Of a stretch of 64,000 bases of DNA, positions 44,676 through 63,388 are shown one piece after another. The notes under the pieces were generated by a model. That model worked only from the letters and a program-made list of their open reading frames with translations, made no database searches and was not told where the DNA came from. A program made the position numbers and the translations under genes. Within the stretch, counting starts at the first letter, position 1; the number at the start of each line of letters is the position of its first letter. The DNA comes from Pseudomonas nunensis (GTDB taxonomy: Bacteria; Pseudomonadota; Gammaproteobacteria; Pseudomonadales; Pseudomonadaceae): the NCBI RefSeq assembly GCF_024296925.1, contig NZ_CP101125.1, forward strand, positions 2,482,501-2,546,500, read 5' to 3'.

Positions 44676-44712
44676 AGGTGCCCTGATCCTGGGAATCGGG
44701 TAAAGAGTTGTT

Positions 44713-46604: not shown

Positions 46605-46610
46605 TACTCA

Positions 46611-48986
46611 TCAGCACGATAGGCGCTGGGCTGCAAGTGCAATACGAGCCAGTGCAGGAATGGACTTGGAATGAGTGCGAGTCATGATCGAAGCGCGGTG
46701 ATTTTCCACGGTGCGCTGGCTGATCCCGAGCTCGACAGCGATGTTCTTGCTCGGGTGACCTGCCAGCACCATGTCCATGATTTGGCGCTGACGGTCAGTG
46801 AGGTTGTTAATGCATTGGGTGGCTTCGTGAGTCCAGGCCAGTTTTTTATTCGAATCACGCGAGTGTTCCAACGCTCTGGCAACACTTTGAAGAACCTCAC
46901 TTCGACCAAATGGCTTTTCAATAAAGTCCGAAGCGCCAGCCTTCATGGCATCTACAGCAATCGACACTTCACTGCTACCGCTGATCATTACGGCAGGCAA
47001 ATCGTCGCCGTTGCTTCTCAATCGATGCAGGAGATCAAGGCCTTCCATTCCCGGCAGATGAGCATCAACCAGCAAGCATGCCCGTAGCCCGGGGGAGTAG
47101 TCCTCCAGAAACGCCTCGCATGACGCATAGTCCTGGACTAGATAATCGCTTGATTCAAGGACTCCTCGAATCGTATCGCGAAAAAGATCGTCGCGATCAA
47201 CCACGAATATGATCGATGTCCTTGTATCGCATGACTCGTTTTTATCGAGTTGCTCATCGTCGACAATCGCCAGACGTTGTTGTGAAAGCAACGAAGTAAT
47301 AACAAAGATGACCTCTTTGAGCTTCGCCGGTTTGTTGAGCTGAGTACAGTGCTCGAACGCCACGTCACGGGAGGTCTGTCGTGAAATATCACCAGTCAGG
47401 ATGATGGCGGGAATGCTGCGGTGCAGTCTTTTGCGCAGCTGGCTGATTAGTTGCAAGCCATTGATCGATCCTGGCAGATTGAAGTCAGCCAGTATCAGAT
47501 CAGGTTGGACGCCTCGATGTGTGACGCTTTCGAGCGCCGTGACACCGTCGATCGCCATTGCCACTTGATATCCTTCGGATTTGAGCAGGCCGCCCAGTAA
47601 TTCGAGCAGTTCAACGTCATCCTCGACAATCAGGATCATTTCTTTGTTGGTTACTGGGCCGTGCTCTTGTAAATCATTTTCTTGCGCCGCGCTTGGCAGG
47701 GCTGCGCTTTCACGGGATAAAGCGACGTCAATAGAAAATGCAGACCCTTTTGCAAGACTCGATTGCACACGTAAACGGTGGCCCAACACGGTGCACAAGC
47801 GTTTAACGATAAGTAATCCTGTGCCATTCCCCAGACTGAAGTTTTCTATAGGCGCCGCGTAGTCTTTGAGGATTAATTCCTGCTCCGATGACCCCATGCC
47901 TATACCGGTATCCCAGACTTCAATGCTGAGCCACCGGCCGTGGCGGCGGCAGCCCAGAAGTATCCGACCTTCGTGGGTGTACTGCAGCGCATTGGACAGC
48001 AGATTGCGCAACATTTGCTCCAGTAGGCGCGGGTCACTTTCCACCGAAAGATGACAAGGAACTACCTTCAGTTTTAAACCTTTGGCACCTGCCTTGTAGC
48101 GGAACTCGTCAGCGAGTCGATCCAGCAGGTCACTCATTCGAAAGCTGACGGGGTTTGCCAGGATCGCGCCGGTTTCAATGTGGTTGATATCCAGAAGGGC
48201 ATTCAGCATTCCGGACATTGCGCCCACGGTTTCGCCAATCCTGACCGTCAGCTTGCGAGGTTGCTCATCTTTGAGAATGCCCAGCAGCAGGCCTTGCAAC
48301 AACTTGAGTGTTTGTAAAGGCTGGCGCAGATCATGACTGGCGGAGGAGAGAAAGCGTATCCGGGTGGCGTTAGCGAGTTCCGCTTTCTGCGTTGCGTCTT
48401 CAAGCGCTTGGGTGACCTGCTTTTTATCGCGGATATCGGTAAAGGTAATGATCACACCTTCAACAAAATCATCTTGTTTGTTATAGGGCGAAATCCGACG
48501 GGTAAAACTCACTCCACTACGCGATTCGACGTCTCGCTCCAGCGGGGTCATATCACGCATGACAGTTTTGGCATCATCCAGCAGATTGACATCGGTTGCC
48601 ATCGGACATAGGTCAGCCAGTGGTCGCCCAATGTCCTGGGTAAGAATGTTGAATAGTGACTGACTAGCGGGGGTGAACAAGCGGATATTCAGATTTGCGT
48701 CTAACAGAATGACCGCGATGTTCATGCTATTCAGCACGTTCAGTGAAACAAGCGAGGCGGTCCGTTGCTGTTCGAGCGAAGCACGAAGCTGATCATTCAT
48801 CTCAGTCAGCTCGATGTTCAAGGAGCGCAACTGGTGAGTGGATTCGGTTGTGTTCTTCGGCGTCAATTGCTCTTTCGAGCCCAGCGTTGCAGCATCGGCT
48901 GAAGGAGATGGGGTAATCACCTTGGGCGTGGCCGTTCCAGCGTCGAGTGGAAGGCGAACTGGCATTGTGATCTCGCAGCAATGCAT
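46611..48986 (-). CDS. Hybrid kinase PAS-HK-REC-REC-LuxR
   Basis: 791 residues, no membrane segment. A coiled coil and PAS domain (about 55-180; ILLDANLNIRLFTPASQSLF, split as VILLDANLNIRLF and TPASQSLFNIL) closely resemble the C-terminal PAS of CheB-CheR fusion proteins. HisKA with SHDLRQPLQTL, HATPase with LSNALQYTHEG, DTGIGM and GNGTGLLIV. REC1 with Asp in LILADFNLP, REC2 (FixJ-like) with Asp in LLVDAHLPGMEG and EKPFG. C-terminal LuxR/FixJ HTH with LTDRQRQIMDMVLAGHPSK and ISQRTVENHRASIM. It thus senses, relays and binds DNA in one chain. It heads the operon with the 145-aa, KaiC-like and glucan synthase genes. ATG 48965 is an alternative start. Confidence 0.9.
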   Translation of the reverse strand: MHCCEITMPVRLPLDAGTATPKVITPSPSADAATLGSKEQLTPKNTTESTHQLRSLNIELTEMNDQLRASLEQQRTASLVSLNVLNSMNIAVILLDANLNIRLFTPASQSLFNILTQDIGRPLADLCPMATDVNLLDDAKTVMRDMTPLERDVESRSGVSFTRRISPYNKQDDFVEGVIITFTDIRDKKQVTQALEDATQKAELANATRIRFLSSASHDLRQPLQTLKLLQGLLLGILKDEQPRKLTVRIGETVGAMSGMLNALLDINHIETGAILANPVSFRMSDLLDRLADEFRYKAGAKGLKLKVVPCHLSVESDPRLLEQMLRNLLSNALQYTHEGRILLGCRRHGRWLSIEVWDTGIGMGSSEQELILKDYAAPIENFSLGNGTGLLIVKRLCTVLGHRLRVQSSLAKGSAFSIDVALSRESAALPSAAQENDLQEHGPVTNKEMILIVEDDVELLELLGGLLKSEGYQVAMAIDGVTALESVTHRGVQPDLILADFNLPGSINGLQLISQLRKRLHRSIPAIILTGDISRQTSRDVAFEHCTQLNKPAKLKEVIFVITSLLSQQRLAIVDDEQLDKNESCDTRTSIIFVVDRDDLFRDTIRGVLESSDYLVQDYASCEAFLEDYSPGLRACLLVDAHLPGMEGLDLLHRLRSNGDDLPAVMISGSSEVSIAVDAMKAGASDFIEKPFGRSEVLQSVARALEHSRDSNKKLAWTHEATQCINNLTDRQRQIMDMVLAGHPSKNIAVELGISQRTVENHRASIMTRTHSKSIPALARIALAAQRLSC

Positions 48987-49207: not shown

Positions 49208-49256
49208 CCTAGGTAGTTTCCGAGTCTGTCGCCCCCACTGTAATTCCTCATACCCT
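49208..49256 (+). promoter_or_regulatory. FixJ-like box and -10, copy 1 (oleate hydratase)
   Basis: CCTAGGTAGTTTCCGAG at 49208-49224, identical to copy 2. TACCCT (TAnnnT) at 49251-49256, 38 bases after the G of GTAG. No -35 hexamer at the expected place, as for an activator-dependent promoter. The gene starts at 49322. Confidence 0.6.
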
Positions 49257-49321
49257 GAAATTCATACCGGCGCATCTCTACGGGGGTGCTTTTCGACGAC
49301 TCGGCACTCAGAGTACGACCC

Positions 49322-50938
49322 ATGACCGATAAAGATGACTCGCAAACAAATGCACCGAGTGAAACTGAGCCGCGTTTCTACCTCGTAGGCGGGGGAATAG
49401 CCGCCATGGCTGCGGCCGCGTTCATGATCCGTGATGGCGATGTCATCGGGCGCAACATCACCCTCTTCGAAAAACTCGACACGCCCGGGGGTAGTCTTGA
49501 TGGTGGAGGATCGGCACAGGACGGTTATGTGCTTCGGGGGGGACGGATGTTCGAGAGCAAGTATGTATGCACTCTGGAGTTGTTCGCGTCGATTCCGACC
49601 CTTGATGGCAAAACAACCGTCACGCAGGAGACACTCGCCTGGAATGAACGGATGCACACGTCTTCCAAGTCACGACTTGCCCGCAACGGTCTCAGGGAAA
49701 CGGCTCCGGAATTCGGACTTACCGAGGGTGACATTCTGACGATCGAGAGGATCGCAATCGAGTCGGAAGCAGCATTGGGACGAACCACGATCGCCGATCA
49801 GTTTTCAGAGTCGTTCTTCCAGACTCAATTCTGGTTGATGTGGTGCACCACGTTTGCTTTTCAACCTTGGCACAGTGCCGCGGAATTCCGTCGCTACATC
49901 GTGCGCTTCGCACACATGGTGGCGGGATTCAATCGGCTCGAAGGCATCATGCGAACGGTCTACAACCAGTACGATTCGCTGGTCAGGCCCTTGCACAAAT
50001 GGCTGGTCGAGCACGGCGTGGTCTTTGAGCAAGGGGCTTGCGTGACGGATATGCATTTGCGTGAGCAAAACAACGGAAAAAGCGTCAAGCGTATCCTCTA
50101 CGAGCGCAATGGTGGGCAGTCAGTCGTCGATGTTCGAAGCTGTGATTACGTGTTAGTGACGCTTGGTTCCATGACCGAAGCGTCGAGCATTGGAGGCATG
50201 GATCAAGCTCCGCAATTGAAAAGCAAAGCGATCAAAGGCGCTTGGGCTCTTTGGGAAACATTGGCAAAAGGCAGGCCCGAGTTCGGCCACCCACAGGTGT
50301 TTTCCAATCATATCGATGCGACCAAGTGGGTATCGTTCACGACGACCCTCAGCGATCCGGTCTTTTTGCGACGGACCGTGGAATTTACCGGCAACGTACC
50401 GGGGGAGGGCGGTTTAATAACCTTTCCTGAGTCCAACTGGTTGATGTCGATAGTGGTGCCATTCCAGCCTCACTTTATTGACCAGCCCGAGGAAGTCAGC
50501 GTGTTTTGGGGCTACGGGTTGCATGTCGACGTCCCGGGCAATTTCGTCAATATCCCGATGTCTGCCTGTACCGGGCGGGAAATCATGACGGAGTTGCTTG
50601 GGCATCTGCACTTTGGTTCAGACAGCCAGGCCATCCTGAAAAGCGCAATCTGCATTCCCTGCATGATGCCGTTCATCACCAGTCAGTTCATGCCGAGAGA
50701 GGAGGGCGATCGACCTCAGGTCGTGCCCGAGGGATACAAAAACCTGGCCTTTATAGGGCAGTACTGTGAACTGCCTAACGACGTCGTCTTCACCGTGGAG
50801 TACTCGATACGTACTGCGCAATGCGCAGTTTCCAGTTTGCTGGGGCTCAAACGCAAACCGCCAAAAGTCTACAAGGGCGCGACGGATCCTCGTGTCTTGT
50901 TCAAGGCCTTCAAGGCGTTGCATGACATGGGTGTTTAA
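49322..50938 (+). CDS. ohyA: Oleate hydratase (MCRA family)
   Basis: 538 residues, FAD-dependent, hydrates the cis-9 double bond of oleate to 10-hydroxystearate. Seen: FAD motif VGGGIAAMAAAAFMIRDG near the N-terminus, FEKLDTPGGSLDG, the conserved GGRMFESKYVCTLELF with the catalytic-region Glu, WCTTFAFQPWHSAAEFRRY split as WCTTFAFQPWHS and AEFRRYIVRF, and the C-terminal PNDVVFTVEYSIRTAQ. ATG 49322 is chosen by family N-terminus; GTG 49286 is possible. It detoxifies host or environmental unsaturated fatty acids and may modify membranes. It stands alone behind a FixJ-like box. Confidence 0.92.
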   Translation: MTDKDDSQTNAPSETEPRFYLVGGGIAAMAAAAFMIRDGDVIGRNITLFEKLDTPGGSLDGGGSAQDGYVLRGGRMFESKYVCTLELFASIPTLDGKTTVTQETLAWNERMHTSSKSRLARNGLRETAPEFGLTEGDILTIERIAIESEAALGRTTIADQFSESFFQTQFWLMWCTTFAFQPWHSAAEFRRYIVRFAHMVAGFNRLEGIMRTVYNQYDSLVRPLHKWLVEHGVVFEQGACVTDMHLREQNNGKSVKRILYERNGGQSVVDVRSCDYVLVTLGSMTEASSIGGMDQAPQLKSKAIKGAWALWETLAKGRPEFGHPQVFSNHIDATKWVSFTTTLSDPVFLRRTVEFTGNVPGEGGLITFPESNWLMSIVVPFQPHFIDQPEEVSVFWGYGLHVDVPGNFVNIPMSACTGREIMTELLGHLHFGSDSQAILKSAICIPCMMPFITSQFMPREEGDRPQVVPEGYKNLAFIGQYCELPNDVVFTVEYSIRTAQCAVSSLLGLKRKPPKVYKGATDPRVLFKAFKALHDMGV

Positions 50939-50963
50939 GTGCTGCGGATCTGCATATCCCTTG

Positions 50964-51011
50964 CCTAGGTAGTTTCCGAGCCTTCTTTCAGAGCCAACTA
51001 CCGAATAGGGT
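50964..51011 (+). promoter_or_regulatory. FixJ-like box and -10, copy 2 (lipoprotein)
   Basis: CCTAGGTAGTTTCCGAG at 50964-50980 and TAGGGT at 51006-51011, 37 bases after the G of GTAG. The first gene starts at 51069. Confidence 0.6.
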
Positions 51012-51068
51012 GATCTCTCTGCATCGGCAGACCGAACTACGCCTATTCAGGCGCCAAGGAGTGACACC

Positions 51069-51323
51069 ATGAGAAAACTCACCCTGACTACTTCATTGAT
51101 CGTGGTCTTGGCGATGACTGCCGGTTGCAGTCACCGCCGACAGGAGATTGACGCCCGGATAAGCGGCGCCGAAGACATGGCAACAGCGGCCAGAGTGCAC
51201 GCGGATCAGTCGGCGGCCAAAGCAGATCAGGCACTGCGTGCAGCCCTGGAGGCAAAGAAATCGGCAGACGAAGCCAATGCGCGCGCACAACTTATGCTCA
51301 AAAAGGCCGGTCGCGCCAATTAA
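51069..51323 (+). CDS. Lpp/OprI-type lipoprotein
   Basis: 84 residues. Lipoprotein signal with lipobox around MTAGC (Cys20), then an alanine-zipper coiled coil (MATAARVHADQSAAKADQAL, split as MATAARVHA and DQSAAKADQAL) ending in a basic Lys-rich tail (LMLKKAGRAN). Murein lipoproteins of the OprI type have the same length and heptads and can link the outer membrane to peptidoglycan. It is an accessory copy here. AAGGAG precedes the ATG; a second lipoprotein gene follows within 40 bases. Confidence 0.88.
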   Translation: MRKLTLTTSLIVVLAMTAGCSHRRQEIDARISGAEDMATAARVHADQSAAKADQALRAALEAKKSADEANARAQLMLKKAGRAN

Positions 51324-51360
51324 CGACAGGCGCATTCCAATTCAATTGAATGGCACCGCT

Positions 51361-51756
51361 ATGAAAATGAGTATTTTGCTGAGTCTGATGTGTGCTTGCC
51401 TTGTCGGCTGCGTACATGCTCCGACTGAAAAAAAAATGACCACGCCGGACTCGATCGAAAACCTCAGTCAGCCCCGCATCAAGGTGCCGGTTACCGCCAA
51501 GGACGACTACGTAGCCAAGACCAAAGCGCTGACCGGGCTGGAGGGCGACGGATGGGTGTTCGACCCGCTCTACGCGACCGCAGTGAATACCGAGCGCCGT
51601 GACCTTGCCGTGTGTAGTTTTGCTCGCCAGCGAGGAACGACAAATTCGGTTTATTTTGCCTATTACAGCGGCGAGCTGATCCTTTCGGATGACAAAGCGC
51701 CTTCTGGTGTCAGTGTTGAAAATGAATTCCTGACGATGATTTGTTCCCCCTCCTGA
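51361..51756 (+). CDS. Putative lipoprotein, 131 aa
   Basis: Start ATG 51361 yields a lipoprotein signal peptide with lipobox LVGC (Cys17) after a hydrophobic stretch. The mature part has no recognised family; it is polar with a strand-rich C-terminal half (RRDLAVCSFARQRG, VYFAYYSGELILSDD) and two further cysteines that might pair. It is cotranscribed with the Lpp-like gene. Outer-membrane sorting is likely since the residue after Cys is Val, not Asp. Confidence 0.8.
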   Translation: MKMSILLSLMCACLVGCVHAPTEKKMTTPDSIENLSQPRIKVPVTAKDDYVAKTKALTGLEGDGWVFDPLYATAVNTERRDLAVCSFARQRGTTNSVYFAYYSGELILSDDKAPSGVSVENEFLTMICSPS

Positions 51757-51758
51757 AT

Positions 51759-51776
51759 CGTGACAACCACGTTTTT
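51759..51776 (+). terminator. Weak terminator
   Basis: CGTG-ACAAC-CACG followed by five Ts, between the lipoprotein gene (+) and the VIT gene (-). The stem is only 4 bp. Confidence 0.35.
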
Positions 51777-51780
51777 AGCG

Positions 51781-52485
51781 CTAGACAATCGCCCCGAAGA
51801 GTCTGCCAACCACAGCGGTAATAACCATCGCCAAAGCTCCCCAAAATGTCACCCTCCAGGCCCCCGCCAGCAAGGGAGCGCCCCCGGCTTTTGCGGCGAC
51901 GGCGCCCAATGTGGCGAGGAAAACAAGTGACATGATCGATATCCAAAGGATCACGCTCTGAAGCGGCACTATCAGCGTTACGGTGACCGGCAAAATGGCG
52001 CCGACGGTGAAACTCGTCGCAGACGCGAACGCTGCGGAAAGAGGCTTGGCACTCAGCTCCTCGGAAATACCCAGTTCATCTCGGGCGTGTGAACCCAGGG
52101 CATCGTGCGCCATTAACTGGATGGCCACCTGTCTGGCCAGTTCAGGCTCAACCCCTCGGCCGACGTAGATATGTGCCAGCTCTTGATGTTCAGCCGCAGG
52201 CTTTGTTTCGATCTCTTTTTTCTCTCTTGCCAAGTCAGCGTGCTCGGTATCGGCCTGGGAGTGCACGGAAACGTACTCACCTGCCGCCATCGACATAGCG
52301 CCCGCTACGAGCCCCGCGACACCCGTCACGATCAGCGCGTTGTGCGTGGTACTGGCGGCTGCAACGCCGATTAACAGGCTGGCGGTCGACACAATTCCAT
52401 CGTTTGCCCCCAGCACAGCCGCTCTGAGCCAGCCTATACGGCTGCTGGTATGGGTTTCGGCATGACGACGCATGAATTTGCTCAT
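51781..52485 (-). CDS. VIT-family metal transporter
   Basis: 234 residues from ATG 52485. VIT1/CCC1 fold: WLRAAVLGANDGIVSTASLL (split as RAAVLGANDGIV and STASLLIGVAAAS), MSMAAGEYVSVHSQADTEHA (split as MSMAAGEYVSV and SQADTEHADLA), a cytoplasmic helical hairpin rich in Glu, and three C-terminal helices. Five membrane helices in all. Plant and yeast relatives carry iron or manganese into vacuoles; bacterial ones are thought to move Fe or Mn. The longer ORF start crosses the box at 52523 and is not supported. Divergent from the BON gene. Confidence 0.88.
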   Translation of the reverse strand: MSKFMRRHAETHTSSRIGWLRAAVLGANDGIVSTASLLIGVAAASTTHNALIVTGVAGLVAGAMSMAAGEYVSVHSQADTEHADLAREKKEIETKPAAEHQELAHIYVGRGVEPELARQVAIQLMAHDALGSHARDELGISEELSAKPLSAAFASATSFTVGAILPVTVTLIVPLQSVILWISIMSLVFLATLGAVAAKAGGAPLLAGAWRVTFWGALAMVITAVVGRLFGAIV

Positions 52486-52522
52486 TGCAGTTGGCCTGCT
52501 GTGCGATGGCTTCAGCCGAGAG

Positions 52523-52570
52523 TGTAGGTAGTTTCCGAGGCTACTCATGAGCAAATCAGGCGCCTAACTT
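52523..52570 (+). promoter_or_regulatory. FixJ-like box and -10, copy 3 (BON gene)
   Basis: TGTAGGTAGTTTCCGAG at 52523-52539 and TAACTT at 52565-52570, 37 bases after the G of GTAG. Oriented toward the BON gene at 52692. It also lies 38 bases upstream of the divergent VIT ATG. Confidence 0.6.
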
Positions 52571-52691
52571 GATTGACTCTGCCACTGCGCAGCTGCAACG
52601 ACTGCTTTGACGTTGAAGCCACGGGGTCTGATTGATGAGCGGCCTTGTGACAAAAGCCGCAGCGGCAACCACATAATTCGGGATTGAATTC

Positions 52692-53345
52692 ATGAAAACC
52701 GATCAGGAACTGAAAAACGACATCCTTGCGGAGTTGCGCTGGGAGCCCTCGGTCAACGCCGAACAGATCGGTGTTGAGGTCAAGGATGGCATCGTGACCC
52801 TCGCCGGACACGTCAACAGTTACGTCGAGAAGTGGGCCGCCGAGCAAGCCGTACAGAAGATCTCGGGTGTTCGTGCGCTGGCCGTGGAAATGGACGTGAA
52901 GCTCCCAGGCTTGAGCCAGCGTAATGATGCCGATGTCGCGCGTTCTGCCGATAGCGCCCTGGAGTGGGCAACCAATCTACCCAAAGACTCTATCAAGATT
53001 CAGGTTGAAGGCGGTTGGGTGAGTTTGACGGGGGACGTGGAGTGGGAATACCAACGCAGGGAAGCGGAAGGTGCAGTCCGAAACCTGATGGGCGTCAAGG
53101 GTATCAATAACAACATTTCAATCAAATCCGCGGTTTCGGTAAGAGGCGTTAAGGTCGAGATCACTGAAGCGCTCAAACGTCGGGCAATTATCGATTCGCA
53201 GAAGATTACGGTCGAAGTCCACGGTGCCGATGTGACCTTGTCCGGGACAGTCGACAATTGGGCGGAGCGAGAGTTGGCAATGCATTCAGCCTGGAGTGCG
53301 GCTGGCGTCAAGAATGTGCAGAACAACATCATCGTCAGCTACTGA
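52692..53345 (+). CDS. Triple BON-domain protein
   Basis: 217 residues, no signal peptide. Three BON domains at about 1-70, 75-145 and 150-217, each with the GxVxLxGxV core: GIVTLAGHVNSY, GWVSLTGDVEWEY and ADVTLSGTVDNW. BON proteins bind lipid surfaces or other proteins and are frequently osmotic or envelope-stress induced (OsmY has two); this cytoplasmic three-domain form is typical of soil-bacterial stress clusters. It follows FixJ-like box copy 3 and precedes a DUF1269-like gene. Confidence 0.92.
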   Translation: MKTDQELKNDILAELRWEPSVNAEQIGVEVKDGIVTLAGHVNSYVEKWAAEQAVQKISGVRALAVEMDVKLPGLSQRNDADVARSADSALEWATNLPKDSIKIQVEGGWVSLTGDVEWEYQRREAEGAVRNLMGVKGINNNISIKSAVSVRGVKVEITEALKRRAIIDSQKITVEVHGADVTLSGTVDNWAERELAMHSAWSAAGVKNVQNNIIVSY

Positions 53346-53424
53346 TCCTCATGTGGTGTTCGGCAACAGGACGCGTGTGTCTTGCACCGTTTTCAGATAC
53401 GTCCCCATGAGCAGGCTTCAGACC

Positions 53425-53907
53425 ATGAGCATTAACCGTTCTGATTTCTACATCTTTAAAACCCATGCCGAAGCCGAAAGTGCGATACGTGCTCTGAGCC
53501 AGGCAGACTTTGACGTAAAGAAACTCTCAATCGTGGGTAAGGGCTATCACACGGAAGAACACCCGATCGGCTTTTACCAGTTGGGAGACAAAGTGAAGTC
53601 TTGGGGCGCTATGGGAGCTCTTTGGGGCAGTGTCTGGGGGCTTCTTATTACGCCGGCATTTTTCTTCCTGCCTGGCCTGGGGCTCGTTGCCTTGGCGGGT
53701 CCTTTGGTGGCCCTGTTGGTGAGTGCGCTGGAGGGCGCTGTGATTGTCGGCGGTGTCTCCGCACTCGGCGCAGCGCTATTAAATATGGGGTTAAGCAAAG
53801 ACCAGGTCATCAAATACGAAACCGCCCTCAAGGCTGACGAGTATTTATTAATGGTGCATGGCAGCAGCCACGACATCGATGCGGTGCGAGCTGTGCTCGG
53901 GGATTGA
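53425..53907 (+). CDS. DUF1269-like general stress membrane protein
   Basis: 160 residues. N-terminal alpha-beta part (FYIFKTHAEAESAIRALSQA, split as FYIFKTHAEAES and AIRALSQADFDVKKL) followed by a glycine-rich double membrane segment (about 60-125; WGAMGALWGSVWGLLITPAFF, split as GALWGSVWGLL and PAFFFLPGLGLVALAG) and a C-terminal soluble strand (YLLMVHGSS). This is the 'general stress protein 17M-like/DUF1269' build. ATG 53425 chosen; 53407 also possible. Role unknown; the stress context (BON, VIT) fits. Confidence 0.8.
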   Translation: MSINRSDFYIFKTHAEAESAIRALSQADFDVKKLSIVGKGYHTEEHPIGFYQLGDKVKSWGAMGALWGSVWGLLITPAFFFLPGLGLVALAGPLVALLVSALEGAVIVGGVSALGAALLNMGLSKDQVIKYETALKADEYLLMVHGSSHDIDAVRAVLGD

Positions 53908-54037
53908 AATCACGGCGCTTTCGTTTCGAGAGAACTGCGCATTTAGCCACTACCAGAGCACTCCCATAGGGAATAACCCTTGTGGGCTCTCAGCCGAAAT
54001 CCATCGGCCTGTGTTCACTCAAGTGAAGGCATTCGTC

Positions 54038-55420
54038 ATGGCTTATACAAGTGTTAATCCCAGTGACGGCCAGTTGCTGGAAAGCTTTGAACAAATCAGC
54101 GATCTCGAGTTGGAAGAAAAGCTTGCGGCCGCAGAGCATTGTTTTCAGAGCTGGAAACATACCTCTTATGCGCAACGTGCCGCAGTGATTGGCAGGGCGG
54201 CAGAACTGATGCACTCCAGGGTTGAAGACCTGGCTCGACTGGCAACATTGGAGATGGGGAAACGCATCAGCGAAGCCAGTGGTGAAGTGACCTTCAGCGC
54301 CGATATCCTGGACTATTACGCAAAAAATGCTGAGCGCTTTTTGGCACGCCAAAGACTCCACCCCCAACAGGGCGAAGCCCATATGGAAAGCAGCCCTATC
54401 GGGGTGATTTTCGGCGTTGAACCCTGGAACTTTCCTTTTTACCAATTGGCACGTGTCGCAGGGCCGCATCTCATGGCGGGCAATGTGTTGGTGGTCAAGC
54501 ACGCCGGTTGTGTTCCGCAATGCGCGATGGCTTTCGAGTCGCTGTTGGTCGAGGCCGGAGCACCCTTGGGCCTCTACACCAACCTGATGATTTCCCATGA
54601 GCAGTCGGACCGCGTGGTGGACGACGCACGCGTCAAAGGTGTCGCCCTTACGGGTAGCGTAGCCGCCGGCCGCAGTCTCGCGGCGCGGGCCGGAGCCAAC
54701 CTCAAGCCTTCATCGATGGAACTGGGCGGCAGCGACGCGTTTATCGTACTGGAGGACGCCGACCTTGACCTCGCCGTCAACTGGGCGGTCTGGGGGCGTA
54801 TGTACAACTGCGGGCAAACCTGTTGCGCCGCCAAGCGCTTTATCGTGCTTGAAGAAGTCGCAGATGTATTTATTGAGCGCTTTCAGGCAGCACTGGCTGC
54901 GCTTAAGCCAGGCAACCCGATGGACGAGAGCACGACACTGGGGCCCATGTCGACAGAGTCGGCCCTGCAGCAGTTGCTGGCGCAGGTCGAAGACGCTGTG
55001 TTTAACGGCGCCGAGGTACTGCTTGGCGGCGAGAGAATTCGTCGTCCGGGCGCTTACATGAGTCCGACCATCCTGACCAACATCGCGCCCGACAATCCGG
55101 CTTTCAGAGATGAATTCTTTGGCCCTGTCGTGCTTTTTTTCCGGGTCAAGGATGAAGAAGAGGCGATCGCGCTAGCCAATGACTCGGATTTCGGCCTGGG
55201 TGGCTCGGTGTTCACAAGAGACGTGGGCCGTGGTCTGCGACTCGCCAGCCGGATCGATACCGGCATGGTGTTTATCAACAACATCAGTTGGTCAGATGCT
55301 GAATTGCCCTTCGGAGGGATTAAGAACTCCGGTTACGGGCGTGAGTTGGGCGATATAGGCATCCAGACCTTCGTTAACAAAAAACTGGTGCGTTACGTCT
55401 CCGTTGACGCTCCGGTTTAA
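54038..55420 (+). CDS. NAD(P)-dependent aldehyde dehydrogenase (SSADH-like)
   Basis: 460 residues. Seen: EPWNFPFYQLAR (Asn oxyanion hole), the Lys of VVKHAG, TGSVAAGRSLA (cofactor loop), ELGGSDAFIVL (general-base Glu), catalytic Cys in NCGQTCCAAKR, and EFFGPVV. It resembles short succinate-semialdehyde dehydrogenases such as Sad. GAAGG precedes ATG 54038; the longer ORF start is unsupported. It heads the ALDH-ADH-Nnr-Xfp-AckA block and would convert aldehydes to acids. Confidence 0.92.
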   Translation: MAYTSVNPSDGQLLESFEQISDLELEEKLAAAEHCFQSWKHTSYAQRAAVIGRAAELMHSRVEDLARLATLEMGKRISEASGEVTFSADILDYYAKNAERFLARQRLHPQQGEAHMESSPIGVIFGVEPWNFPFYQLARVAGPHLMAGNVLVVKHAGCVPQCAMAFESLLVEAGAPLGLYTNLMISHEQSDRVVDDARVKGVALTGSVAAGRSLAARAGANLKPSSMELGGSDAFIVLEDADLDLAVNWAVWGRMYNCGQTCCAAKRFIVLEEVADVFIERFQAALAALKPGNPMDESTTLGPMSTESALQQLLAQVEDAVFNGAEVLLGGERIRRPGAYMSPTILTNIAPDNPAFRDEFFGPVVLFFRVKDEEEAIALANDSDFGLGGSVFTRDVGRGLRLASRIDTGMVFINNISWSDAELPFGGIKNSGYGRELGDIGIQTFVNKKLVRYVSVDAPV

Positions 55421-55636
55421 GGCCGCGTCGCGCCCACTCAAGGCGCCGAGTTCTGCGCTAATTCGTGCCCGCTTAGGTCGTCATGTCGAGCATGATTGAA
55501 GCGGTCAGGGGCTTGGGTTTGTCCGCCGCCAGTTGATACGCAAGGTGCAGCGCACACCGGAAATCGGCCCACCTTCTGGACCTGCTTGTCACTTCATGTG
55601 GCCCCATGTACGGGACCCATCAAAAAGGAAGCTCCC

Positions 55637-56671
55637 ATGACACTCCAAATGCTGGCTGCCGTCGTTGAACAATTCGGCCAGCCGCTGGTGCTTAAACGTT
55701 GCGATATTCCAACCCCCGGTCCCGGGCAGATTCTGGTTCGTACCGAGGCCTGCGGGGTTTGTCATACCGACCTGCATGCGGCCCGTGGCGACTGGCCGCT
55801 CAAACCGGGTTTGCCTTTTATTCCGGGACACGAAGGCATCGGTATCGTCACAGCCCTCGGGGCCGGAGTAACCAGTGTCAAGGAAGGCGAGCGGGTCGGT
55901 GTGCCGTGGCTGTATTCGGCCTGCGGGCATTGTGAATACTGTCTGTCGGCCTGGGAGACGGTGTGTGCCCAAGCACAATTCGGTGGCTACACAAAGAATG
56001 GAGGCTTTGCCGAATACATTCTGGCAGACCCGAACTACGTCGCACACATTCCCCATGGCCTTGATCCGAGAGAGGCCGCGCCAATCATTTGTGCCGGCGT
56101 CACGACTTACAAAGGCATCAAGGAAACCGAGGCCCGGCCGGGGCAGTGGATTGTGATTTCCGGTGTGGGGGGACTGGGCCACCTGGCTGTTCAATATGCC
56201 AAGGCCATGGGGCTGCGAGTCTGCGCCGTTGATATTGATGACCGCAAACTGGCCCATGCCACCCGACTTGGAGCCGATGCCGTGGTTAATGCCAAAAAAG
56301 GCGACCCGGTCGAAGCGGCGAAAGAGGCTACTGGCGGCGGTGGTCATGGCGTGCTTATCACCGCGCCCTCGCTCAGCGCATTCAATCAAGGCGTCGCCAT
56401 GACGCGTAAACACGGGACTTGCGTGCTGGTGGGGTTGCCGCCCGGTGAGTTTCCGGTGCCGCTGTTCGATGTGGTCGCCAACTGCATCACCGTTCGCGGC
56501 TCGTTTGTCGGCACTCGTCAGGACATGGCCGAGGCGCTGACCTTTGCTGCTCAGGGCAAGGTCAAGGCAGACATCGAGTTGCAGCCGTTGTCGGCGATCA
56601 ACCAGATTTTCGAGCGCCTCGAACACGGAGATGTTCCATCGCGTGTGGTTATCGACTTCAGTGCGGTTTGA
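55637..56671 (+). CDS. adhP: Zinc alcohol dehydrogenase (AdhP-like)
   Basis: 344 residues, medium-chain, Zn- and NAD-dependent. Catalytic zinc ligands in CGVCHTDLH and GHEGIG; structural zinc cysteines in CGHCEYC plus VCAQ; Rossmann GVGGLGHLA; Asp of VDIDDRK points to NAD. Ethanol/acetaldehyde is the usual substrate of AdhP. AAGGAAG precedes the ATG. 200 bases separate it from the ALDH, without a recognised promoter. It probably reoxidises NADH when respiration is limited. Confidence 0.93.
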   Translation: MTLQMLAAVVEQFGQPLVLKRCDIPTPGPGQILVRTEACGVCHTDLHAARGDWPLKPGLPFIPGHEGIGIVTALGAGVTSVKEGERVGVPWLYSACGHCEYCLSAWETVCAQAQFGGYTKNGGFAEYILADPNYVAHIPHGLDPREAAPIICAGVTTYKGIKETEARPGQWIVISGVGGLGHLAVQYAKAMGLRVCAVDIDDRKLAHATRLGADAVVNAKKGDPVEAAKEATGGGGHGVLITAPSLSAFNQGVAMTRKHGTCVLVGLPPGEFPVPLFDVVANCITVRGSFVGTRQDMAEALTFAAQGKVKADIELQPLSAINQIFERLEHGDVPSRVVIDFSAV

Positions 56672-56685
56672 AAGAGTGGTAGAGC

Positions 56686-58173
56686 ATGAACATGTTGATT
56701 TCCGAGTCTGTGCTGACAAATCGCCAGTGCGCCTTACTTACCGTTGGGCAGATGGCCGAAGCCGATCGGCGCTCGGTCGCTGCCGGTGTGTCGTCTTTTG
56801 AATTGATGGCCAATGCCGGTGCGGCAGTGGCGCACGAAATCGAGTGCCACTGGACACCGAGACCTGTGTTGGTGCTGTGCGGGCCAGGTAATAACGGTGG
56901 TGATGGTTTCGTCACCGCCCACGTGCTGGCAGAAGCAGGCTGGCCGGTGAGGGTGGCAATGCTGGGGAGCCGATTCAGCCTCAAGGACGAAGCGCGGCAG
57001 CATGCCCAACGATGGGTTGGGGAAGTTGAAGCGTTGAGTCCCGAGGTGCTCGAAGGTGCCGAGTTAATCGTTGATGCTCTATTCGGCGCAGGCCTCAGTC
57101 GCCCACTGCAAGACCAGGCGCTGGAAACGCTTGCCGCCGCCAGCCATGGCACTGTCCCCATTGTCGCAATCGATACGCCTAGCGGCGTGATGGGCGATAG
57201 CGGTGAATCGCTAGGGGCGGTTCCGGCAGTGCTGACCGTGACTTTTTTCCGCAAGAAACCAGGCCACCTGCTGCTACCAGGGCGAGACTTGTGTGGCGAA
57301 GTGATCGTTGCGGACATTGGCACCCCGAAAGCGGTGCTCGATGCCATCGCGCCCCAAACATATGAAAATCATCCAGCACTGTGGTTGGCCAACCTGCCGC
57401 GAGCCACGTCGGACACCGACAAACACAGCCGTGGCCATGCCCTGATTTTCGGCGGGTATCCAATGACGGGGGCGGCTCGAATGGCTGCCAGAGGTGCAGC
57501 GAGAGCCGGTTCGGGTCTCACGACCATTGCGGTGCCTGAAATAGCGTTTCCCATTTATGCCACAGTGCTGGACAGCATCATGGTACGTCCATGGCTGACG
57601 CCGGAAGACTTCGGTCACTTGCTCAATGGCAGCCGCTTTTCCGCTTGGTTGATTGGCCCGGGTGCCGGCGTTGACAAGGAAACCTTCGGTCATGCTCTGG
57701 CAATGCTTGCCACTGGCCGCCCAACCATCATCGACGCCGATGCGATCACCGCATTCCAGGATGAACCCGGCGCGCTGGATCGAGCCATTCACGGTCCATG
57801 CGTGTTGACGCCCCATGAGAGCGAGTTCCGCCGGGTTTTTGATCCCTTTGGCGACAAGCTGACCCGCACCCGAGCCGCTGCCCGGCGTTGCGGGGCAGTC
57901 GTGGTCCTCAAAGGCAGTGACACCGTGATCGCCGCCCCCGACGGCAGAGCAATCATCAACGCCAATGCACCGCCAACTTTAGCCACCGCTGGGACGGGCG
58001 ATGTCTTGAGTGGAATTATTCTGGGTCTGCTAGCGCAAGGAATGTCGGCCTTTGACAGTGCCGCAGCGGGAGTCTGGTTGCACGGTGCGGCGGCTGCCGA
58101 ATTTGGTCCCGGACTACTGGCAGAAGATCTGCCGGATCTGTTACCCGCGGTGTTCCGTCGGCTGTATAGCTGA
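56686..58173 (+). CDS. nnr: Bifunctional NAD(P)HX epimerase/dehydratase
   Basis: 495 residues that repair hydrated NAD(P)H. The N-terminal YjeF_N domain (about 10-215) epimerises (LCGPGNNGGDGFV, IDTPSGVMGD); the C-terminal ribokinase-like domain (about 235-490) dehydrates with ADP or ATP (HSRGHALIFGG, GLIGPGAGV-type segment as LIGPGAGVDKE, TPHESEF, GTGDVLSGII). It starts 15 bases after adhP. An additional copy in a dehydrogenase operon is unusual and may serve high NADH turnover. Confidence 0.93.
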   Translation: MNMLISESVLTNRQCALLTVGQMAEADRRSVAAGVSSFELMANAGAAVAHEIECHWTPRPVLVLCGPGNNGGDGFVTAHVLAEAGWPVRVAMLGSRFSLKDEARQHAQRWVGEVEALSPEVLEGAELIVDALFGAGLSRPLQDQALETLAAASHGTVPIVAIDTPSGVMGDSGESLGAVPAVLTVTFFRKKPGHLLLPGRDLCGEVIVADIGTPKAVLDAIAPQTYENHPALWLANLPRATSDTDKHSRGHALIFGGYPMTGAARMAARGAARAGSGLTTIAVPEIAFPIYATVLDSIMVRPWLTPEDFGHLLNGSRFSAWLIGPGAGVDKETFGHALAMLATGRPTIIDADAITAFQDEPGALDRAIHGPCVLTPHESEFRRVFDPFGDKLTRTRAAARRCGAVVVLKGSDTVIAAPDGRAIINANAPPTLATAGTGDVLSGIILGLLAQGMSAFDSAAAGVWLHGAAAAEFGPGLLAEDLPDLLPAVFRRLYS

Positions 58174-58197
58174 TAGCCACCCGTTAAGGAGAAAACA

Positions 58198-60564
58198 ATG
58201 CGCCAGGGAATTACGACTCAACAGTTGCAGGACATGGATGCCTATTGGCGTGCAGCCAACTATCTGTCCGTCGGGCAGATTTATCTGCAAGACAATCCTT
58301 TGCTTGAAGTGCCCTTGTTACTTGAACACCTCAAGCCACGACTGCTGGGACATTGGGGGACGACACCGGGTCTGAACTTGCTTTATGTGCACCTCAACCG
58401 CGTGATCAAGGCCTTTGACCTCAACATGATTTTCATTGCGGGCCCTGGCCATGGCGGCCCCGGTATCGTTGCGCAGACGTACCTTGAGGGCTCGTATACC
58501 GAGCGTTATCCAGCGATAGAGCGTAATCACAACGGGTTGTGCAGGCTCTTCCGTCAATTTTCCTGGCCAAACGGGATTTCCAGTCACGTCTCGGCGCAAG
58601 TGCCCGGATCCATCCATGAAGGAGGTGAGCTGGGTTACTCCCTGGTGCATGCCTTCGGGGCGGCGTTCGACAATCCTCAGTTGATCGTTGCCTGTGTGAT
58701 TGGTGATGGTGAAGCGGAGACCGGCGCGCTGGCAGCCAGTTGGCACTCGAACAAGTTCCTCAACCCGATCAGGGATGGCGCCGTACTCCCCATCCTGCAT
58801 CTCAACGGTTTCAAGATTGCCAATCCGAGTGTATTGGCACGTATTCCTCATGAAGAACTGATCGCGCTCATGCGTGGCTATGGCTATGAGCCTTATGTCG
58901 TCGAGGGCGATGATCCGTTACTGGTGCATCAAGCACTGGCAGCCACGCTCGATATCGTCATGCAGAGCATTCGTGACATTCAGACGACTGCCCGTCAGGC
59001 CCTCAGAAGTGAAAGACCGCAACGTCCCACCTGGCCGATGATTATCCTGCGCACACCCAAAGGCTGGACCGGACCCAAGTGGGTCGACGGGCTGCCTGTA
59101 GAGGGCACATGGCGTGCACACCAGGTCCCGATTGCCGACTTCAGCAAACCTGAGCACCTGCAACTGCTTGAGTCGTGGATGCGCAGTTATCGGCCCCAAG
59201 ATCTATTCGACAAGAACGGCCAGCTCCGTGCAGATCTGGCTGAACTGGCCCCGACCGGTCATCAGCGTATGGGTTCCAACCCTCATGCCAACGGGGGAGA
59301 GTTGTTACGGCCATTATCGCTGCCACACTTTCACGATTATGCCGTGCCCATTAACCGACCCGGTGCGGTCAGGGCGGAAGCGACCCGCGTACTGGGTAAC
59401 TACTTGCGAGACGTCATGCAGCGCAATCTCGCATCCGGCAATTTTCGGCTATTCGGTCCTGACGAGACTGCATCGAATCGCCTGGACGCTGTGTATCAGG
59501 TGGCCGGCAAAGCCTGGATGGCCAGGATTGAAGAGGTCGATCTCAATCTCAGCGCCGATGGACGCGTGATGGAAGTCCTGAGCGAACACTTGTGCCAGGG
59601 GTGGCTTGAAGGTTACTTGTTAACCGGTCGCCACGGCCTGTTTTCCTGCTATGAAGCGTTCATCCATATCATCGACTCAATGCTCAACCAGCACGCGAAG
59701 TGGCTCAAAGAATCTAAAGCAATTCCCTGGCGCAAACCCGTCGCTTCACTCAATTACCTCCTGACTTCACACACCTGGCGCCAGGACCACAATGGCTCTT
59801 CGCATCAGGATCCGGGGTTTATCGATCACGTCGCCAACAAGAAATCCGACACCGTGCGCATCTACCTGCCGCCGGATGCCAATTGCTTATTGTCGGTCAC
59901 TGATCACTGCTTGCGCAGTCACGACTACATCAACCTGATTATTGCCGGTAAGCAACCGGAGTGGCAGTGGCTGGACATGCCATCCGCCATTCGTCATTGC
60001 ACTGCCGGAGCCGGGATCTGGAACTGGGCGGGGACTGAGGGGCCGGAGGGGCCGGATGTCGTTATGGCCTGTGCCGGCGACGTACCGACGCTTGAGACCC
60101 TGGCCAGCGTCATGCTGTTGCGTGAGTACATCCCCGACATTCGAATTCGGGTGGTCAACGTAGTTGATCTCATGGTTTTGCAGCCCAATGACGAGCATCC
60201 CCATGGCCTTCAGGACAATGATTTCGACGAGTTGTTTACCAACGACAGACCCGTCATTTTTGCTTTTCACGGATACCCCGCGCTGATTCACAAGTTGACC
60301 TATCGACGAGCCAATCATGACAATTTTCACGTGCGCGGTTTCCGTGATGAGGGTACGACCACCACGCCGTTCGACATGGTAGTGCTCAACAACCTGGATC
60401 GTTATCAGTTGGCCCTGGACGCTATCGAACGCATCCCGCGCCTGCGTAGTGAGGTGGACCGTGCGCGAGAACGTTACTGGACGATGATCCAGTGCCACAA
60501 ACGTTACATCAGCGAGCATGGCGAAGATCTGCCGCAGGTGCGGGATTGGCAATGGACAGTCTAA
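58198..60564 (+). CDS. xfp: Phosphoketolase (Xfp family)
   Basis: 788 residues, the family length. ThDP enzyme cleaving xylulose 5-phosphate (and often fructose 6-phosphate) with phosphate to acetyl phosphate. Seen: [29 protein letters not shown] split as [12 protein letters not shown], ThDP-binding [42 protein letters not shown] split as [11 protein letters not shown], and the [17 protein letters not shown] [20 protein letters not shown] precedes the ATG. The acetate kinase gene overlaps its end by 13 bases. Confidence 0.95.
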
Positions 60565-61769
60565 ACCTGACAAATGCCGAACCGGACGGCGAGTTGGCGT
60601 CGGGACGGGAGCGTCTGATTTTAGCGCTCAACAGCGGCTCGTCTTCACTGAAGTTTGGTGTTTATCGAGTCACGGGTGATCGCGTCCAGAAGTTGATTTC
60701 AGGTGAAGCACAGGCGCTCGGCACCCAAGCCGGGCGCTTTGAAGCGATCAACGCACACCAGCAACCACTCGTTGGAGAATCAGTGCCCATGATCACAACG
60801 AAGCACGCGTTGCATGAGGTTGAACGGTTGCTGGAGCAGACGCAATCAGGACCTTTGGATGGCATCGGGCATCGCGTCGTACATGGTGGCCCGGCGCTAC
60901 GCCAGCCATGTCGCATCAACAAACAGGTGCTTGAGCAACTGCAACAGGTGATTGGCTTTGCGCCTTTGCACACGCCGATGGCGCTGTCTGTCATTGAGGA
61001 AACCTCCAGACACTTCCCGGAGGTTGCACAGGTGGTGTGCGTTGACACGGGATTTCACGCACAAATGCCTGAGGTTGCCTGCGTGTTGGCATTGCCCAAA
61101 GAACTTCGCGAGCAGGGAATCCAGCGCTATGGCTTTCATGGGCTGTCTTGCGAGTCCATTGTCCGGCGGTTCGGGTCCAGTCTGCCCAGGCGTCTGATCA
61201 TCGCCCATCTGGGTAACGGAGCGAGCATCACTGCAGTGCGTGCTGGTCAATCAGTCGACACCAGCATGGGCCTGACACCCTGCGGCGGAATGATCATGAG
61301 CACTCGCAGCGGCGACTTGGACCCCGGGGTGCTGATTTACCTGATACGCCAGAAAGGACTTGATGTGGCGGCGGTAGAGACGCTGGTTGATCGGCAATCC
61401 GGTTTGCTTGGCATCTCTGGACTCAGCGCTGACATGCGCTCGCTAAAGATCGCGTCCCCTACTCAGGCAGACGCCCGACTGGCAATCGCGATGTTCTGTT
61501 ATTCGGCCTCCAAGCAGATCGCCGCAATGATGGCGGTGCTTGGCGGCATCGACACACTGGTTTTCACCGGGGGGATCGGCGAGAACGATGCCGAGGTACG
61601 CGCGAATATTTGTAATGGGCTGACCTGGACCGGTTTGCACTTGGATAGCGCGCTGAACCAGTCAGGCAGTGACCTGATAAGTACCCTTGAGTCCACCTGC
61701 ACAGTGCGCGTTTTTGACTCGCGGGAAGACGAAGAAATTGCCCGCCATACCTGGCAACTCATTCCCTGA
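60552..61769 (+). CDS. ackA: Acetate kinase
   Basis: 405 residues. Makes ATP and acetate from acetyl phosphate. Seen: [64 protein letters not shown] and FTGGIGEND. The ATG at 60552 overlaps the phosphoketolase stop, so translation is coupled and the acetyl phosphate made upstream is turned into ATP here. An N-terminal extension of about 20 residues precedes the usual start. Confidence 0.95.
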
Positions 61770-61804
61770 CGTCACTTTCCCATTCCTTGATACAGGTGCT
61801 CATC

Positions 61805-62386
61805 ATGTTGACTGACTATGCAGTAGAAAAAATTCTGGCGGCGCTGGGCCACGCGTCACCCGATGAGCACTGGATCGAAGCCTTGAACGACGGCACCCAC
61901 GTACTCATCCGTCCATTGCATGAGCAAGATCGCCAACTCGAGTTCGGTTTCATTAACCAGCTGTCCGCCGAGTCTTTTCGTACTCGTTTTTTCGGGGCGA
62001 TAGGGCAAGAGAATGTGCCACTCCTGGATCAGATGATGGACGTGGATTATCGTAATCGCATGGCATACATCGCGATGGTTCACGAAAACGGCCATCTGTC
62101 CGCTGTCGGAATCAGCCGCTATGCCGTCACTGCCGATGGCCGACAATGTGAGTGTGCGGTAGTTGTCGCGGATCACTGGCAACGTCAAGGCATGGGAACG
62201 CTATTGATGGAGCACTTGATCGTTGCGGCGCGACGTAATGGCTTCAATAAAATGATGTCGATTCATCAGACCAACAACTTCGGTATGCATCGCCTGGCGC
62301 GAAGCCTTGGGTTCCACAGCCGCTACCCGTCTACTGGCGATAACGAAATCATTCATGAACTCGACCTGACGCCGGCCTTCGGATAA
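61805..62386 (+). CDS. GNAT acetyltransferase (Pat C-domain like)
   Basis: 193 residues. GNAT fold at about 40-185: THVLIRPLHEQDRQLEFGFI split as VLIRPLHEQD, SAESFRTRFFG, the acetyl-CoA motif QRQGMGTLLM and a downstream LARSLGFHSRY. The N-terminal motif order (LIRPL, SxxSxxxRFF) is the one seen in the acetyltransferase domain of protein lysine acetyltransferase Pat/YfiQ and its Crp-linked relatives. It may acetylate acetyl-CoA or acetyl-phosphate metabolism enzymes. AGGTG precedes ATG 61805. Confidence 0.87.
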   Translation: MLTDYAVEKILAALGHASPDEHWIEALNDGTHVLIRPLHEQDRQLEFGFINQLSAESFRTRFFGAIGQENVPLLDQMMDVDYRNRMAYIAMVHENGHLSAVGISRYAVTADGRQCECAVVVADHWQRQGMGTLLMEHLIVAARRNGFNKMMSIHQTNNFGMHRLARSLGFHSRYPSTGDNEIIHELDLTPAFG

Positions 62387-62424
62387 CGGCGGCTGATGGA
62401 TGTCCATAAAATGCTGGAGTGCGC

Positions 62425-63183
62425 ATGATGCTGCTCAATACCGGACAAGTACGACCGTTGACGCCACATTTTGCGCGGTCTTACCCTTCAATAAAAACCC
62501 TTGATCAATCCACCATTCATGAAGTGTTTTTGTCGTCGCACTGCTCTGAGGAAGACCGTGAACGTTTTGACGAATTAATCATTCATAAAGTTCGTATTAG
62601 TAAAGGCATAGAGCTGTATCGCGCGGGAGATCCGTCGCAGTATTTATATTTTGTTCGGCGTGGCAGTTTTAAGACAACCCTTGTAAGCGAACAAGGTCAT
62701 AGTTTGGTCACCGGATTTACGATGTCCGGAGAACCTATGGGCTTGGAAGTGATCACTGGCGAACGGCATATATGCACGGTGTCGGCTTTGGAAGACAGTG
62801 AAGTGAATCTTATTTCTTGTCAACGGCTGGCAAATCTTGCTCGGGATATCCCCGTATTGCAGTTAAACTTGAACAGAATGCTTAGCAGGGAGCTTATCCG
62901 CAGCCAGAATATGCTAATCACTTTGGGCCACTGCACCGCAGAAGAGCGCTTGGCAATCTTCATGCTCGACCTCTCCAGGCGCTTTGCAGTAAGGGGGTAC
63001 TCTGCACACTGCTTTCTTTTGCGAATGTCGCGTGAGGATATTGCATCGTTCATTGGCGTGAGGGCCGAAACGATTTGCCGGGCTATTGCGCGCTTGCGCG
63101 CTCTACGTCTGATGACTTTCGAAGGCCGTAGCGTCGAAATTATCGATATACCGCAGCTTGAAACGTTTTGTCAGCGAGGCTGA
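62425..63183 (+). CDS. Fnr-like regulator lacking the FeS cysteines
   Basis: 252 residues from ATG 62425 (GGAG 5 bases before). Crp/Fnr beta roll about 40-150, dimer helix 150-180, winged HTH about 195-250. The recognition helix reads RAETICRAIARL: Glu and Arg at the Fnr positions (E-xxx-R), with Cys for Fnr Ser. The N-terminal CxxC cluster of Fnr/Anr is absent, so it is Dnr-like in lacking an FeS sensor. Expected to bind TTGAT-N4-ATCAA-like sites, two of which occur in this window. It closes the fermentation block and may regulate it. Confidence 0.9.
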   Translation: MMLLNTGQVRPLTPHFARSYPSIKTLDQSTIHEVFLSSHCSEEDRERFDELIIHKVRISKGIELYRAGDPSQYLYFVRRGSFKTTLVSEQGHSLVTGFTMSGEPMGLEVITGERHICTVSALEDSEVNLISCQRLANLARDIPVLQLNLNRMLSRELIRSQNMLITLGHCTAEERLAIFMLDLSRRFAVRGYSAHCFLLRMSREDIASFIGVRAETICRAIARLRALRLMTFEGRSVEIIDIPQLETFCQRG

Positions 63184-63321
63184 TACCAACAAGGTTTAGC
63201 GATGAAACAAGGGTTCCAAGGGTTCGATGAATGATTTGAGTATATTTACTCATGACGGCGCCAGTTCTATAAAGACTGTCGCTCTTTTCCTGTGGTCGAG
63301 CCCTGGTTTTATGGGTGTTGC
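63184..63321. other. Intergenic
   Basis: Nothing recognised before the box at 63322. Confidence 0.3.
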
Positions 63322-63368
63322 GTAAGTAGATTCCGATGCTTTCCCGAGTTAAGCGCGAGCATTATGAT
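63322..63368 (+). promoter_or_regulatory. FixJ-like box and -10, copy 4
   Basis: GTAAGTAGATTCCGA at 63322-63336 contains GTAAGTAG, an exact match to the FixJ core GTAMGTAG. TATGAT at 63363-63368 is 37 bases after the G of GTAG. The short ORF at 63389 and the decarboxylase gene at 63767 follow. Confidence 0.6.
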
Positions 63369-63388
63369 TGCGGGGAAGGAAAAGAGTT

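Follow-up and report, generated by a model that had tools for sequence, protein, structure and literature searches.

The best explanation for a promoter box repeated in a 64,000-nucleotide stretch of Pseudomonas nunensis DNA (contig NZ_CP101125.1, positions 2,482,501 to 2,546,500 of the forward strand; the whole stretch is called the window) is that a hybrid kinase fused to a FixJ-like regulator, encoded beside the box, binds it and activates genes of stress, fermentation and pH homeostasis, to which we give a probability of about 85% on comparative sequence evidence. Computation established the box and its distribution, its spacing to a -10 hexamer and its association with the output domain of the kinase, and the interpretation offered by a sequence-only reading of the window was largely supported by comparative genomics. 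The four boxes and their proposed -10 hexamers, with offsets counted from the G of GTAG to the start of TAnnnT, were found at the following positions.

49210..49227, plus strand: box 1, TAGGTAGTTTCCGAGTCT, oriented away from the kinase and 224 bases upstream of its start
49251..49256, plus strand: proposed -10 of box 1, TACCCT, offset 38
50966..50983, plus strand: box 2, TAGGTAGTTTCCGAGCCT
51006..51011, plus strand: proposed -10 of box 2, TAGGGT, offset 37
52525..52542, plus strand: box 3, TAGGTAGTTTCCGAGGCT
52565..52570, plus strand: proposed -10 of box 3, TAACTT, offset 37
63323..63340, plus strand: box 4, TAAGTAGATTCCGATGCT, which with the preceding base contains GTAAGTAG
63363..63368, plus strand: proposed -10 of box 4, TATGAT, offset 37

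The 17-mer CCTAGGTAGTTTCCGAG was found in the window without mismatch at 49208 and 50964, as the sequence-only reading had stated, followed by a copy with 2 mismatches at 52523. The fourth copy, GTAAGTAGATTCCGATG from 63322, contained 4 mismatches to CCTAGGTAGTTTCCGAG in the same register (counted by eye) and 3 to GTAGGTAGTTTCCGAG, so that the description as near-exact was too strong for this copy. The cross-species 18-base consensus TRVGTANWTTCCGANNCT matched all four copies without mismatch; at up to 2 mismatches it gave five matches in the window against 0.45 expected, a count reached in 0 of 100 shuffles, and the fifth match (49585) was located inside the oleate hydratase gene. The claim that a TAnnnT hexamer begins 37-38 bases after the G of GTAG in every copy was borne out, and no other offset within 20-59 was found to hold such a hexamer. 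A genome-wide scan returned four matches to the pattern TRVGTADWTTCCGANNCT in the 7.33 Mb source genome (a single contig of 7,328,926 bases), all of them on the plus strand and inside the window, and the reversed TRVGTADWTTCCGANNCT pattern gave 0 matches in the source genome.

The box was found to be conserved around relatives of the kinase in 80 loci, whose sources are Pseudomonas, Dyella, Rhodanobacter, Caballeronia, Paraburkholderia, many Alphaproteobacteria and a few others. These loci are the best of 314 relatives, chosen by protein only; several come from one genome, some are cut by contig ends, and they cover at most ~22-40 kb on the two sides of the kinase. The word GTAGTTTCCGA had 108 exact occurrences there and 212 when one mismatch was allowed, whereas the reversed word gave 30 and 15 shuffled words gave 2-36, and an unbiased count of 9-mers gave GTAGTTTCC as the most over-represented, with 120 occurrences against 4.5 expected, in 54 of the 80 loci. 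A site set seeded with GTAGTTTCCGA and four one-base variants contained 190 sites in 69 of the 80 loci (184 after removal of duplicates), with the profile T-R-M-GTAG-W-TTCCGA-N-B-C-T, in which positions outside the seed were also conserved, namely position -2 as T (0.96) and positions 14-15 as C (0.92) and T (0.98). The TAnnnT hexamer was found at offsets 36 (12 sites), 37 (65), 38 (36) and 39 (5), with no more than 2 at every other offset from 20 to 54; counted by site, 117 of the 184 contained it at 36-39, against 4.3% expected from flank composition.

The reading of the four copies as a recent repeat or as chance words with no regulatory role draws on there being only four copies in one genome and on the absence of a general excess in a phylum sample of 398 genomes, where the pattern was found in 5 (the source genome, G285, G407, G444 and G513) and the reversed pattern in 10. 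The window expectation for CCTAGGTAGTTTCCGAG at up to 3 mismatches was 0.10 matches, however, and near the kinase both box and spacing persist in distant taxa whose flanks differ, which leaves this reading with a negligible chance, and it was rejected.

A conserved CT(G) was found to close the box at the -35 position. If a -35 hexamer began with this CT(G), the spacer to TAnnnT would be ~17-19 bases in the cross-species profile, and a degenerate -35 may therefore belong to the box itself; the earlier statement that there is no -35 holds for a separate canonical hexamer and perhaps not for such a degenerate one. An activator-type site that abuts the -35 at a fixed distance from the -10 corresponds to the class II layout of sigma-70 promoters, and no separate conserved upstream element was found in the site profile. 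The rigid -10 spacing and the lack of a separate canonical -35 would also suit a promoter element for an alternative sigma factor of the extracytoplasmic function type, but the core, at about -52 to -39, is placed upstream of the -35, the hexamer downstream resembles a sigma-70 -10, and the core matches FixJ sites obtained by systematic evolution of ligands by exponential enrichment (SELEX) as given in PMC4999443; such a sigma factor element is very unlikely. That the regulator binds the box and represses, or does both, is also unlikely: repression by unphosphorylated FixJ is reported from Rhodopseudomonas palustris (PMC13327599), but class II activators usually bind where this site lies, just upstream of or abutting the -35, and a good -35 is not among the conserved features.

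Five annotated plasmid islands (Caballeronia, Polymorphobacter, Methylocystis, Phyllobacterium and Lichenicola), taken from 60 listed plasmid matches with gene tables near the boxes entered by hand and L285 left out as it carries no annotation, contained 26 boxes when only mismatch-free matches were counted, and 25 of these were located up to 400 bases upstream of a same-strand gene. The genes after island boxes were found to encode a general stress protein, Usp, BON, PRC-barrel, oleate hydratase and alcohol dehydrogenase, followed by a pyridoxal phosphate (PLP) decarboxylase, an alternate F1F0 ATPase, gnd, DnaK, NAD(P)HX dehydratase, adenylate kinase and others. Among the 117 TAnnnT sites of the 80 loci, 37 had no downstream open reading frame (ORF) passing the codon score, and the other 80 ORFs, compared with Pfam, contained BON (8), ferritin (5), response regulator (5), Ysc84 (5), OmpA (4), and oleate hydratase, Clp, CsbD, DUF3309 and PRC (3 each). 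Many of the box-linked genes of the relatives are genes of stress, fermentation and pH homeostasis, and such a list would point to a signal of energy, oxygen or acid stress. Among the families downstream of boxes, the one with most members was found to comprise 19 proteins from 18 loci, of which 9 follow TAnnnT sites; by eye it resembles a REC-type response regulator and is perhaps a feedback element.

The proposed reader of the box was found at the following position.

46611..48986, minus strand: hybrid kinase of 791 residues, PAS_10 - HisKA/HATPase - REC1 - REC2-LuxR (Pfam)

Its last 198 residues gave FixJ (PDB entry 5xso, E 6e-34) as the best PDB match by sequence, in agreement with the earlier claim that the protein ends in a FixJ-type REC-LuxR output, followed by 1yio ('response regulatory protein', E 3e-31), which we take to be a REC-LuxR regulator of the StyR type. 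StyR is a stand-alone regulator of styrene degradation; the likeness of the output domain to this type lies in the second-best match, and the stand-alone form is the difference. The output domain contains the REC-LuxR architecture (Pfam), the phospho-acceptor Asp D641 and a FixJ-like helix-turn-helix (5xso), and it scored 221 bits with the NCBIfam FixJ model NF006900, below the cut-off of 255. The kinase core scored best among NCBI models with NF041832 (NahK/ErcS) at 296.7 bits, below the cut-off of 400; it shares with the NahK/ErcS hybrid kinases this best score, whereas the protein here adds REC2-LuxR and several relatives add a CheB/CheR-like front part. H218 and the REC1 residue D501 were conserved in 80 of 80 homologues and the REC2 residue D641 in 78 of 79 with a residue there. 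The closest named relative was that of Pseudomonas sp. ANT_J12 (96% identical). The kinase-holding frame was found to span 1,455-1,681 residues in eight listed non-Pseudomonas relatives (L116, L130, L134, L139, L144, L147, L152 and L187), the front part of L139 matching CheB models and CheB or CheR being the annotated name in several other relatives, whereas the five aligned Pseudomonas forms and the 750-residue Lichenicola form contained no CheB/CheR-like front part.

The regulator is FixJ-like in its output and, as judged from sequence, in its site, yet it stays below the curated FixJ cut-off. The recognition helix was found to be SQRTVENHRA here and SPRTVEVHRA in FixJ of S. meliloti. The SELEX site classes of FixJ given in PMC4999443 are GTAGTTTCCC and GTAMGTAG, and the box resembles them, as noted earlier for FixJ sites, in that the core GTAGTTTCC is common to the box and the class GTAGTTTCCC and copy 4 contains GTAAGTAG, as in GTAMGTAG. 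After GTAGTTTCC the box contains GA where the SELEX class has C, and its 3' half-site is CCGANNCT in place of CCC. The box here abuts the -35, whereas the same paper places FixJ protection at S. meliloti fixK farther upstream, at -69/-44 and -57/-31. The output domain is of the FixJ kind and is fused to its own kinase, unlike FixJ, which is a separate regulator paired with the haem sensor FixL, and no haem PAS is shown for the kinase here; the putative targets here are stress and fermentation genes. A pattern search of L279, a record of S. meliloti, found none of the literature FixJ words. By eye, however, TAAGTAGTCTCCCTTA was found in that record upstream of the second gene that follows fixJ, a gene annotated only as a helix-turn-helix protein and presumably fixK by gene order.

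The box was found to follow the output domain across genomes. In 298 genomes of the same genus the 18-base pattern was present in 17 and the reversed pattern in 7, and the kinase model (threshold E 1e-120) matched 9; the box was present in 8 of these 9, with G128 as the exception, and in 9 of the 289 without the kinase (p 1.5e-10). Two of the nine kinase-free genomes with the box, G070 and G100, contained a stand-alone REC-LuxR protein, 55% and 52% identical to REC2-LuxR, whose gene adjoins the box between the BON and aldehyde dehydrogenase genes. With the stand-alone regulator as query (E 1e-40), 8 of 149 same-genus genomes contained the output domain, fused or stand-alone, and the box was present in 7 of these 8 against 5 of the 141 others (p 2e-8), a comparison that takes both 149-genome draws as identical, as the handles suggest. 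The reversed pattern was found in 3 of the 141, the fourth control match being in G100, which has the regulator. This comparison, together with the boxes beside stand-alone output domains in G070 and G100, shows that the box tracks the output domain and not the kinase part. The protein searches scored only between 3 and 19 candidates in each genome, so that weak relatives may be missed. Of eight single matches inspected in kinase-free genomes, one was in G100, which has the stand-alone regulator, and only that of G717 had TAnnnT at 36-39. The box of G717 (G717:C1:3575771-3575788, locus L243; TAnnnT offset 38, no kinase at E 1e-120) is possibly an island remnant. A loose 15-mer at up to one mismatch was set aside in favour of the 18-base consensus, since it matched 29 of 149 genomes and several of 19 loci were judged coding-like by eye.

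A different DNA-binding protein, such as a separate FixJ/NarL-type regulator, might read the box, the kinase being only a neighbour or acting through it. Cross-talk is conceivable, the core being close to published FixJ sites (PMC4999443), a second FixJ-like helix-turn-helix was found in 3 of 85 loci (the 80 and the five islands), and the view of each locus is limited to ~22-40 kb at most about the kinase. In 82 of the 85 loci, however, no second such domain was found, the box follows the output domain even where this stands alone, and in same-genus genomes without the output domain box and reversed pattern are about equally frequent (5 against 3 of 141), so that a separate reader is quite unlikely.

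The pattern was also sought in wider sets of genomes. Kinase-bearing genomes of the 80 loci, 34 picked by hand and mainly named isolates, contained the pattern in 31, with 174 matches against 1 for the reversed pattern; L133 (Caballeronia sordidicola PAMC 26633) contained 49 exact matches, the most of the 34, followed by 15 in the next. G593 and G606, which lie farther off than every Pseudomonas locus of the 80, are independent. In the phylum sample the kinase model (E 1e-100) matched 7 genomes, with a full-model match only in the source genome and G382. G382 contained no exact match and one box with 1 mismatch, with TAnnnT at 37, upstream of its kinase; in G285 the kinase matched model positions 62-404, and the surrounding 40 kb contained eight boxes with one mismatch at most; G407, G444 and G513 contained no such kinase at E 1e-100. 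A Fisher comparison of the 34 picked genomes with the phylum sample was set aside because the sets are unmatched.

Several observations weigh against the fused regulator as activator at these boxes. The result for the 34 genomes is partly circular, as the pattern was refined on the same 80 loci with which they overlap, and 3 of the 34 contained no exact 18-base match. Part of the link could be joint transfer, as kinase and box adjoin in most loci. G128 was found to contain a C-terminal kinase fragment (no start codon found) and no box. One relative, L112 (strain QS1027 = G140), contains Asn as REC2 phospho-acceptor while its genome retains two box matches. The hexamer was missing at 36-39 in 67 of the 184 sites and at the expected offset in the boxes of G593, and among the island boxes it was present at 35-40 in 15 of 26, with 1 of 7 in the Polymorphobacter island.

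In the proposed mechanism, for which binding, activation, phosphate path, signal and operon extent are inferred from sequence, the kinase would perceive a signal through its PAS domain and autophosphorylate at H218, followed by transfer of the phosphate to D641 of REC2, directly or through D501 of REC1. The output domain would then bind TRMGTAGWTTCCGA, centred near -45 beside the degenerate -35 (CTG), and recruit sigma-70 polymerase to the -10 TAnnnT by class II activation. The predicted targets here are the genes of oleate hydratase, the lipoprotein and a decarboxylase, together with a nine-gene operon that begins with BON, includes phosphoketolase and ends with a Crp/Fnr-type regulator. Many genes of stress, fermentation and pH homeostasis follow the box in relatives; they cluster close to the gene of the kinase, and in some species these clusters are on plasmids. 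The candidate targets in the window were found as follows.

49286..50938, plus strand: oleate hydratase (MCRA family), proposed target of box 1, Pfam E 4e-191
51069..51323, plus strand: alanine-zipper lipoprotein, proposed target of box 2, Pfam Alanine_zipper E 2.5e-6
51361-51756: ORF of 131 residues, downstream of the lipoprotein gene
52692..63183, plus strand: nine co-directional genes after box 3, from Pfam and gene gaps
63768..64000 and beyond the window end, plus strand: start of the gene of a PLP amino-acid decarboxylase of Orn/Lys/Arg type (family by eye), proposed target of box 4

The oleate hydratase gene contains an in-frame ATG at 49322, which by eye is the likelier start. The nine genes after box 3 were found in the order BON, YflT-like, aldehyde dehydrogenase, alcohol dehydrogenase, YjeF (NAD(P)HX repair), phosphoketolase, acetate kinase, GNAT and Crp/Fnr-type regulator, with gaps of 80, -49, 76, 15, 25, -72, 18 and 33 bases, and they probably form one transcript from box 3, which would not serve BON alone. 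The VIT gene is located on the opposite strand and directed away from box 3, and is thus no obvious target; the single relay suggested earlier for the oleate hydratase, lipoprotein, BON/VIT and decarboxylase genes is upheld as predicted control by the co-occurrence of box and output domain across species, and not for VIT. The closing Crp/Fnr-type gene scored 69 bits with the FixK model (cut-off 300) and 157 bits with the Fnr model (cut-off 228); its place at the end of the probable target operon is reminiscent of the control of fixK by FixLJ. The leader between box 4 and the decarboxylase gene spans ~390 bases, and the decarboxylase was found continued in L107. A 31-residue ORF (63389-63484, plus strand) was found in this leader just after box 4, with no convincing relative in the kinase loci compared (best E 0.13). 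No Rfam match was found at 44000-64000.

A broader reading, to which we give slightly better than even odds, is a portable stress regulon with its own promoter code. In it the fused kinase/regulator and the boxed genes would travel together as islands and on plasmids across Alpha-, Beta- and Gammaproteobacteria and ready their hosts for energy, oxygen or acid stress, and a Crp/Fnr-type regulator would form a second tier, as a counterpart of FixLJ-FixK outside nitrogen fixation. No description of the regulon was found by title and abstract among open-licence papers only, a scope in which absence is not proven, and for the core word and its variants no bacterial promoter study was found by title or abstract among the listed open-licence matches. 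The box would provide a specific, testable DNA signature for a stress regulon, and through it one candidate regulator is linked, across phyla, with genes whose role is unclear (oleate hydratase, BON, CsbD, DUF3309). The box may also serve as a natural experiment on shifting FixJ-type DNA recognition, the recognition helix and the 5' core being nearly the same and the 3' half-site different.

The minus-strand gene run of the kinase was found to contain a KaiC-like double-ATPase gene (44713-46218, minus strand), followed by a gene of 2909 residues of GH94/glucoamylase type (36036-44765, minus strand), a GH94 relative being present in 9 of the 80 loci. The KaiC-like gene was rejected as a kinase partner, a relative being found near the kinase in 2 of the 80 loci (L113, 77%; L136, only 22%), and it fails the KaiC models (202 bits against 408, 123 against 546). 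Between it and the kinase gene an ORF of 145 residues (46167-46604, minus strand) was found, with no Pfam or NCBIfam match and a relative in 1 of the 80 loci (L113). A second Crp-type gene and a PRC-barrel gene are located beside the GH94 gene (34263-36032, minus strand), so that the left border of the stress island may lie farther out. At 22346-29057 (plus strand), REC-HDOD, CHASE-PAS hybrid kinase and REC-GGDEF genes were found to form a run.

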